DNA of 64,000 nt, taken from NCBI RefSeq assembly GCF_001278845.1, contig NZ_CP012590.1, forward strand, positions 868,001-932,000, written 5' to 3'. The notes below the pieces were generated by a model. The model was not told the DNA's origin and did not search any database. It saw only the letters and a program-made list of their open reading frames with translations. Source of the stretch: Actinomyces sp. oral taxon 414 (lineage in GTDB: Bacteria > Actinomycetota > Actinomycetes > Actinomycetales > Actinomycetaceae). The position numbers and the translations under genes were made by a program. Position 1 is the first letter of the stretch. Each line of letters starts with the position of its first letter. This document shows, in pieces, positions 27,739 through 63,393 of the stretch.

Positions 27739-27875
27739 GTCAAAGAGCGCAGTGGAGAGAAAAGGGCGTAGCAGACGAGTCGACGCGGCCTCTCGCGGCG
27801 GCCTTCCGCGGGCTCCGGGGCCGCTGAACAGTGCCCCGCGGTGCCACCGCGCCGAGGGACTCGCCCGCGGTGGGG

Positions 27876-28031
27876 CGGGTGGGGCTCCTGGGACGGTCTG
27901 AGGCGGGGCTTGTCCAAATCTGCCACAAAGGCGCTCCACGGCGAAGTCGGCCGCGAGAAGAAGCGCGGAATATCAACGATTCTCTTCGTGCACCCCGGCT
28001 CGATCCGGGCCTTTGTGGCAGATTTGGACAA
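27876..28031 (+). repeat. Terminal-inverted-repeat element TIR122, copy 1
   Basis: The core (27910-28031) begins TTGTCCAAATCTGCCACAAAG and ends with its exact complement. The interior holds GCGGAATATCAACGATTCT, shared by all copies. A conserved flank of about 35 bp (GTGGGGCTCCTGGGACGGTC) precedes the left end only, which defines the orientation. Further copies are at 38296, 58253 and 63274. Confidence 0.85.
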
Positions 28032-28219
28032 CCGGGGTCGCCACGGCCCCGGGTGATGTCTCAGGACTTCGGTGACGGTTCTGTATCAGGACATCGGTGA
28101 CGGTTCGGCGGGTCCTGGTGGTGCGGGGCGGGGGAGGTCTTCGGGACCCATGGTATCGACGTCGCCGGCGGGTCCTGGTGGTGCGGGGCGGGGCGCGCCG
28201 CTCGGGGGCCTATGATCGG

Positions 28220-38295: not shown

Positions 38296-38455
38296 TTATC
38301 CAAATCTGTTGCAAAGGCCCGGATCGCGCCAGAGTGCCGAAATAGAATCGTTGATATTCCGCGCTTTGTCCGTGGTCGATCCCGGACCGGGGCGCCTTTG
38401 CAGCAGATTCGGACACGTCCCCGCCCCGGCCCGCTTCAGGAGTCCCACGCGCACC
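38296..38455 (-). repeat. TIR122 element, copy 2 (inverted orientation)
   Basis: The core spans 38296-38416 with ends TTATCCAAATCTGTTGCAAAG and CTTTGCAGCAGATTCGGACA. The interior AGAATCGTTGATATTCCGCG is the complement of the copy 1 interior. The conserved one-sided flank (here CCCGCCCCGG to AGTCCCAC) lies to the right. Both ends carry the TTG/CAA(G) variant instead of CCA/TGG. Confidence 0.85.
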
Positions 38456-58252: not shown

Positions 58253-58417
58253 TTGTCCAAATCTGTTGCAAAGACCCGGATCGGGCCGGAGCGCCGGAAG
58301 AGAATCGTTGATATTCCGGGCTTTTATTCTCGGCCGATCCGGTCGCGGGGCGCCTTTGCAACAGATTTGGACACGCCCCGCCCCGGACCGTCCCAGGAGC
58401 CCCACCCGCACCACCCC
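58253..58417 (-). repeat. TIR122 element, copy 3 (inverted orientation)
   Basis: The core spans 58253-58374 with ends TTGTCCAAATCTGTTGCAAAG and CTTTGCAACAGATTTGGACA, fully complementary in the TTG/CAA variant. The one-sided flank to the right (CCCGCCCCGGACCGTCCCAG) is the complement of the left flank of copy 1. Confidence 0.88.
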
Positions 58418-63153: not shown

Positions 63154-63230
63154 GGCGGGCGGCGGCCCCGCCCGCCGTCGGCCCGGACCCGGCTCGCCCA
63201 CGTCCTGGAAGGTTATTCTGGGGGTGTCTG

Positions 63231-63393
63231 TGTGGTGCTGGTGGGGCTCTTGTGGCGACTCGGGGCGGCGTCGTGTCCAAATCTGCCACAAAGGCGCTCC
63301 GGGCCGGGATCGGCCGCGAAGAAAAGCGCGGAATATCAACGATTCTTCTCGCGCGCTCCGGCTCAATACGGGTCTTTGTGGCAGATTTGGACA
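63231..63393 (+). repeat. TIR122 element, copy 4
   Basis: The core spans 63274-63393 with TGTCCAAATCTGCCACAAAG and its exact complement at the ends. The interior GCGGAATATCAACGATTCT is identical to copy 1, and the one-sided flank (GTGGTGCTGGTGGGGCTC) lies on the left as in copy 1. Confidence 0.88.

Follow-up and report, generated by a model that had tools for sequence, protein, structure and literature searches.

The four repeats found in a 64,000-nucleotide stretch of the chromosome of Actinomyces sp. oral taxon 414 (hereafter the window, C1:868001-932000 of G000, a single-contig genome of 3.84 Mb) belong to a large family of 120-bp elements that keep their length, are conserved in place and show, at fixed loci, a shift of end sequence between species. 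The ends of the elements follow a genome-wide consensus. With moderate confidence, we regard the element as an old site in the DNA, apparently non-coding and fixed in its geometry, at which a putative DNA-binding or recombining protein would act.

All four copies lie in the window where a preliminary description had placed them: copy 1 at 27910..28031 (plus strand, 122 bp), copy 2 at 38296..38416 (minus strand), copy 3 at 58253..58374 (minus strand) and copy 4 at 63274..63393 (plus strand). Ends of this type occur eight times in the window with up to three mismatches (0.11 expected from shuffles), and the shared interior motif occurs four times (0.01 expected). The variable triplets are those described, CCA/TGG in copies 1 and 4 and TTG/CAA in copy 3. 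Copy 2 is of the TTG type and one base short, with the small drift ascribed to it: TTG is kept, TATCC stands at one end and TCCGAATCTGCTG at the other, and the right end reads CTG inward. The common layout stands as well, but copies 2 and 3 are oppositely oriented, with the interior motif on the minus strand. Copy 3 has an ortholog in G021 (L233:4001) with 95% interior identity. The 5' extension of copy 4 (63207..63273, plus strand) starts with an IS5-type terminal repeat, GAAGGTTATTCTGG at 63208-63221; that of copy 1 (GTGGGGCGGGTGGGGCTCCTGGGACGG..., plus strand, limits approximately 27866..27909) is without an IS5-type end. In the middle of copy 1 (27948..27993, plus strand), the conserved centre GCGGAATATCAACG is surrounded by spacers fixed in length and variable in sequence. 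Downstream from copy 1, a remnant of a 1,492-bp IS-like repeat (71 bp, 96% identical) occupies 28053..28123 on the minus strand, and a short stretch, GGCGGGTCCTGGTGGTGCGGGGCGGGG, is present twice between 28107 and 28186.

A family of four copies, as first proposed, is far too small: 123 elements were extracted from 1.15 Mb of G000 (1,146,590 bases around matches, including the contiguous 3,107,101-3,836,419 and the window), and a count over the whole genome gives 131 forward and 130 reverse ends at no more than two mismatches. From TCC to GGA, the length is 116 bp in 121 of the 123 elements, 115 in one and 114 in one. Adding the outer TG and CA yields a unit of 120 bp; a further outer purine/pyrimidine pair, which in other genomes is present in 94 of the 108 copies measuring 119-122 bp, gives the 122 bp of the preliminary description. 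Orientations are balanced (59 plus and 64 minus), and the interior shows no clear bias with chromosome half (21 plus/30 minus and 38 plus/34 minus, the halves being assumed).

The conserved parts of the element are the 20-bp inverted ends, with the consensus RTGTCCAAATC-NG-NNN-CAAAG, and the centre. The order is end, about 30 bp of free spacer, centre (of the CGGAATCATGCGG type), spacer and end, and both spacers are variable. The centre is GCGGAATATCAACG in G000 and CGCGGAATCATGCGG in most other copies read. Within each end, a CAAA motif occurs twice at a distance of 11 bp, about one helical turn, a feature clearest in another genus (see below). In G000, some 65 bp located 5' of the core are also conserved, to about -68 (column statistics leave out two of the 123 copies, of other length, and flank profiles leave out three). 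In two copies of G000 (1703944 and 2605876), the orientations of interior and flank seem discordant, as would result from an inversion of the segment lying between the ends.

The covariance-model search that had been proposed finds the family widespread across the genus. The model (R1) was built from a gap-free alignment of 32 copies from several genomes (A2), and at E <= 0.001 it finds matches in 38 of the 49 genomes of the genus (some of the genomes searched also supplied seed copies), 35 of them with a best E < 1e-9; the matches in G024, G031 and G016 are weaker. Under strict filters, 11 of the 49 have no match, which implies that the system is dispensable, lost or missed there. Matches per genome are not copy numbers, since the number of candidates scored is capped and a palindrome can match on both strands. 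A search of 151 genomes of the family, likewise under strict filters and with capped candidates, gave matches in 14, of which ten belong to Actinomyces and four to three other genera; these four comprise two strong matches (genus g49) and two weak ones. In one g49 genome, the seven copies read are all of 120 bp, and 19-20 of the 20 end pairs match in each. Their ends are TGTCCAAATCCCGTCCAAAC, with two GTCCAAA motifs 11 bp apart (three copies are one base off at one end), and the centre reads CGGAATCATGCGG or the complementary sequence, apart from one-base variants. Leaving out G000 and G021, 113 unique copies were recognized by end pattern in 145 loci of other genomes: 92 have 120 bp, 15 have 121, and lengths of 96, 122, 123, 129, 131 and 132 occur once each, some of them perhaps mis-registered. 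With copy 1 as query, plasmid and phage collections contain no matching record. A phage or plasmid origin was rejected, the sole match to a viral contig being a lone end in A+T-rich sequence that looks like chance. No account of this element was found among listings of open-licence papers.

The conservation in place is best followed between G010 and G025, whose loci were taken from search matches (16 loci with 17 elements and 18 loci with 19 elements, respectively). Fourteen of the 16 G010 loci match a sampled G025 locus, and 13 contain a whole element in both species, giving 14 element pairs. When 12 of these are ranked by interior identity (two with a 121-bp member are left out), 11 pairs rank first and one second, with identities of 0.74-0.97 for those ranked first against a baseline mean of 0.54; the pairs are therefore orthologs. 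Over the 14 pairs, the elements have accumulated 233 substitutions and 5 indel events, and a single pair differs in net length, whereas the 120-bp flanks show 569 substitutions and 114 indel events. The ratio of indels to substitutions is thus 0.021 in elements and 0.20 in flanks (Fisher p = 8e-11), and indels are about ten times rarer in the elements, a comparison that depends on the alignments used and in which some flank is coding. Change per site is 0.208 in the spacers, 0.16 and 0.20 in the flanks, 0.083 in the centre and 0.098 in the ends. With so few indels and spacers diverging at the rate of the flanks, the length of the element is kept where its sequence is not. Conserved spacing at fixed loci together with free spacer sequence, as expected of a protein site, is thus observed in 14 pairs from two species.

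The same loci reveal how the ends change. Both arms switch at six of the 12 pairs, from ATA..TGT in G010 to TGA or CGA..TCA or TCT in G025, and a seventh pair shows a partial difference at both arms. The six switched pairs all have T.G in G010, and two are fully complementary in G025. The positions of the elements are not wholly fixed either, as judged from differences in presence between relatives: one G025 copy is absent from G010, and copy 1 of the window is absent from an A. dentalis contig (A. dentalis being the nearest named record found, with a protein 82% identical to one encoded in the window). At L337 of G010, the left end and the centre are kept and the right end is cut off, while the G025 ortholog (L358) is whole. 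In G010, the ATA/ACA copies at L323, L325, L326, L328, L331 and L332 carry ATA on the contig-left arm in 7/7 cases, for any gene direction; the pattern comes from only three contigs and is possibly due to chance, possibly linked to the direction of replication. An RNA signature in the wobble side of the G010 copies was rejected, as the ATA arm lies contig-left regardless of gene direction.

It had been claimed that the two ends changed together and that their pairing is maintained. Matching ends are indeed the rule in G000 and G021, where 155 copies include 101 CCA/TGG, 52 TTG/CAA, two single-base deviants and no mixed copy; but in G007, 8 of 14 elements found by end pattern carry unlike triplets at their two ends. 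After dereplication (118 copies), the ends are in perfect linkage across 91 bp (r2 = 1). In the interior, r2 falls to background by about 12 bp, and r2 with the triplet has a mean of 0.04 and a largest value of 0.16. The copies look mosaic: where two of them have the same left half (32 pairs), the right halves differ by at least five bases in 53% of cases. Tightly linked swaps do occur in this otherwise little-linked interior, at intermediate frequency, at columns 27/29 and 76/77 of the G000 and G021 copies (G.C or C.G; CG or GC).

Across genomes, both members of the pair vary at columns 11, 13, 14 and 15 of A2, where between two and four Watson-Crick types occur, and columns 13 and 14 present all four; column 13 is unpaired in 7 of the 32 sequences. 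For the 56-pair palindrome of A2, the percentage paired and the covariation score exceed those of 500 shuffles. There is no excess of pairs changed on both sides (33 vs. 32.9 in shuffles) nor of further pair types (96 vs. 95.3). Maintained pairing is not the best account of the matching ends. In G000, the end match reflects two populations, CCA and TTG, the former often carried by IS5-type MITEs, and among the six both-arm switches between G010 and G025, full complementarity is attained in only two G025 copies and in none of G010.

The main rival to a protein site, which we consider possible if somewhat doubtful, is a relic of the ERIC or RUP kind, i.e., a non-autonomous transposable element whose transposase is lost or was not found. 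The copies would be mostly old and inherited, and their length would be conserved since only full-length copies moved or recombined. The 20-bp inverted ends, the intergenic location, the many copies in either orientation, the varying presence between species and the presence/absence differences among relatives are all consistent with it, and so are size, location and copy number, which come close to those of ERIC (127 bp) and RUP (107 bp) in the excerpts consulted (PMC2229807, PMC10969869). Like a MITE, the bare 120-bp element is short, apparently non-coding and bounded by terminal inverted repeats. However, comparison of three candidate sites yielded neither a target duplication for bare copies nor a clean example of the empty sites that had been suggested as a check, the intergenic sequence having diverged at all three. 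Nor does the 1.15 Mb sampled of G000 contain an autonomous transposon bearing the ends of the element, and the length is kept at orthologous sites where the copies stayed put. In 35 relatives, most of the ends listed are paired about 100 bp apart, with lone ends in G003 (C46, C72) and G014.

Within the sample of G000, unpaired ends stand an IS length apart in a single case, around the 1,492-bp IS-like repeat mentioned above. Its seven sampled copies in G000 (L128 1082861-1084352, L143 1704092-1705582, L156 2230332-2231822, L166 2606024-2607514, L170 2682107-2683598, L175 2829056-2830547 and L181 3011485-3012975) are 99.7-100% identical, and each lies 23-34 bp from the end of an element. The repeat ends in TGT...ACA, with a 15-bp direct repeat seen at one site. 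One element beside it is cut short, and the G021 ortholog of one of the sites (L228:4125) is without the repeat. The flank of the element looks like a preferred target of this repeat; regions around elements are over-represented in the sample, but these reach 2 kb, and the repeats cluster far more closely than that.

Among known repeats, REPINs are tied to a RAYT gene of the Y1 type. A RAYT/REPIN system was rejected, since PF01797 is found in none of the 49 genus genomes and is positive in 5 of 14 control genomes; in addition, the ends of the 120-bp element, unlike REPINs, are not themselves hairpins. The likeness lies in short-repeat populations that persist for long inside genomes, in the part of the source consulted (PMC8049555). 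ERIC (also IRU or RU-1) is likewise intergenic, of 127 bp and present in tens to hundreds of copies, according to excerpts of two sources (PMC2229807, PMC10969869). It differs in being enterobacterial, and thus of another phylum, and in the inverted ends listed for it, of 7 bp against 20 bp here (PMC2229807, in part). ERIC also has TA termini and target duplications in the same excerpt (PMC2229807), none being shown here, a comparison made by description only. The Correia/NEMIS repeats of Neisseria and RUP of pneumococcus resemble the element in their size of about 105-160 bp, inverted ends and copy number of about 100, in the portions of the sources used (PMC2229807, PMC10969869). They differ in the TA termini and target duplications described in those pages (PMC2229807), none of which were found here, and RUP is thought, according to the same text, to be mobilised by IS630-Spn1 (PMC2229807).

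Structured RNA is the weakest of the roles put forward in the preliminary description, and we consider it unlikely. The ends would form in transcripts a 20-bp stem affecting termination or processing, as reported for NEMIS/Correia of Neisseria. Folding of the whole element is indeed much stronger than that of shuffles (mean z -6.7 to -7.5 over 37 copies), and columns 13 and 14 of the stem show every pair type. That fold, however, stems from the inverted ends, and the interior is without conserved pairing: columns 22-49 are mostly unpaired with columns 72-99 in A2, so that a conserved interior hairpin was rejected, and a 6-bp central stem is present in about half to two thirds of the 32 copies. 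The mean z of the interior is -0.5 to -1.0 against shuffles, though 28% of 25 G000 copies fall below -2 on the forward strand. In addition, the ends within one G007 copy are often unlike, and Rfam gives no match in the window at the gathering score. An RNA seldom needs an exact loop length.

The gene setting offers the RNA reading some support. No called gene overlaps any of the 123 G000 copies. Among the 95 that could be classed with a crude gene caller (28 of the 123 being left unclassed), 46 lie between co-directional, 37 between convergent and 12 between divergent genes, while the corresponding shares of intergenic bases in a 0.73-Mb contiguous stretch are about 49, 28 and 23%; the copies are thus over-represented between convergent and under-represented between divergent genes. 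A coding function is unlikely, since no frame is free of stops in all copies and three-base periodicity is absent; the most open reverse frame is nearly open, with stops in 3/121, 3/34 and 6/17 copies.

The history of the element in G000 is mixed with that of IS5-type MITEs. Their terminal sequence, GAAGGTTATTC, is found at about -68 in 59 of the 123 copies, and 33 copies are flanked on both sides by such ends, as units of 359-628 bp. Exact 3-bp duplications border 14 of these 33 composites (mean 3.0 and maximum 9 in 5000 side shuffles), and the composite form thus has both the ends and the 3-bp duplication of an IS5-family MITE. Related elements some 880 bp long, bounded by ends of this type, code for a transposase (Pfam DDE_Tnp_4, E 8e-29), which NCBIfam IS5 models match below cut-off. 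The association depends on the end type: 58 of 99 CCA copies carry an IS5-type end vs. 1 of 22 TTG copies, and the ends are perfect outside the triplet in 88 of 99 CCA vs. 9 of 22 TTG copies. The possibility, named beforehand as refuting, that all copies are fragments of one longer ordinary IS is thus borne out only in part: it holds for 33 of the 123 G000 copies but fails beyond this genome, as an IS5-type end within 130 bp is found in 1 of 34 G021 copies and in none of 113 copies from other genomes. Moreover, although these MITEs carry part of the G000 copies, their ends are unrelated to those of the element, TGTCCAAATC.

Among the composites, those of 531-533 bp number 13, and their 3' flank is shared by 16 copies. 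This 531-533 bp composite, with both IS5-type ends (230736, 266272, 592543, 3032471 and nine others), carries the element and also a second TIR-like end, inverted, near its other end. Class-specific 3' modules of G000 (for example after 165496, 349608 and 932040; 287606 and 374816) contain additional long inverted repeats, GAGAACGTCTGCTAGAGGTACGTTCTC as well as GTAGGTTTCTAGTCGAACGCGCA with its complement. That the element in G000 is cargo of IS5-type MITEs, its covariation being the history of two lineages and its own function nil, agrees with the IS5-type ends, the 3-bp duplications, the CCA bias and the 13 composites, but is very improbable, being contradicted as a full explanation by the bare copies elsewhere, by an element of the same length in another genus and by the preservation of length between orthologous copies; it still accounts for part of what happened in G000.

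That history can be read from G021, whose flanks matching G000 are mostly 88-98% identical. TTG is found in 31 of 34 G021 copies, which were picked by perfect ends outside NNN, so that their end integrity is not evidence (G021 holds more copies). Twenty-one sites were compared between the two genomes, assigned from flank matches, with L239 counted three times against two G000 copies. In nine TTG-TTG comparisons, interior identity is 0.84-1.00; in eight of them the G000 copy comes first among 121, and in the ninth it is 22nd. Of eleven TTG-CCA comparisons, two place the G000 copy first and one second, and the remaining eight place it between 31st and 91st; the single CCA-CCA site ranks 78th. 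The TTG copies are therefore largely inherited, and most CCA copies have replaced or joined them. The TTG copies of G000 are bare, older, partly shared with the nearest relative and decaying. The CCA type was also captured by IS5-type MITEs (ends GAAGGTTATTC) and thereby multiplied; some G000 copies evidently were multiplied by an IS, and the repeat status is thus partly explained without function.

For the protein site that we favour, a protein complex would bind both ends and probably the centre too, so that spacing would matter and spacer sequence would not. The ends of all copies in a genome would follow the binding preference of that protein. The copies recombine among themselves as well, which leaves their interiors mosaic, and gene conversion between copies, which the mosaics suggest, could purge indels and homogenise ends without selection. 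More tentatively, Actinomyces and the related genus may possess chromosome-wide sites of fixed geometry for a candidate complex, bound at two ends and the centre, with the ends rewritten in concert and in place across the sites of a genome as the protein preference changes, and with a role in organising the chromosome or in site-specific recombination.

The usual view of small repeats in bacteria is that they are dead MITEs. Here, length is retained at orthologous sites while the spacers drift as fast as the flanks, and at many sites the ends differ between species although the copies stayed where they were. Together these observations provide a testable case for intergenic repeats as a maintained site system. 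The family also illustrates how such a site can be captured by an IS-type MITE and amplified within a single lineage. The set of elements offers clean sites for fishing out the putative protein. If the reading as chromosome-wide sites is true, the family would represent the concerted evolution, in bacteria, of a whole population of binding sites.
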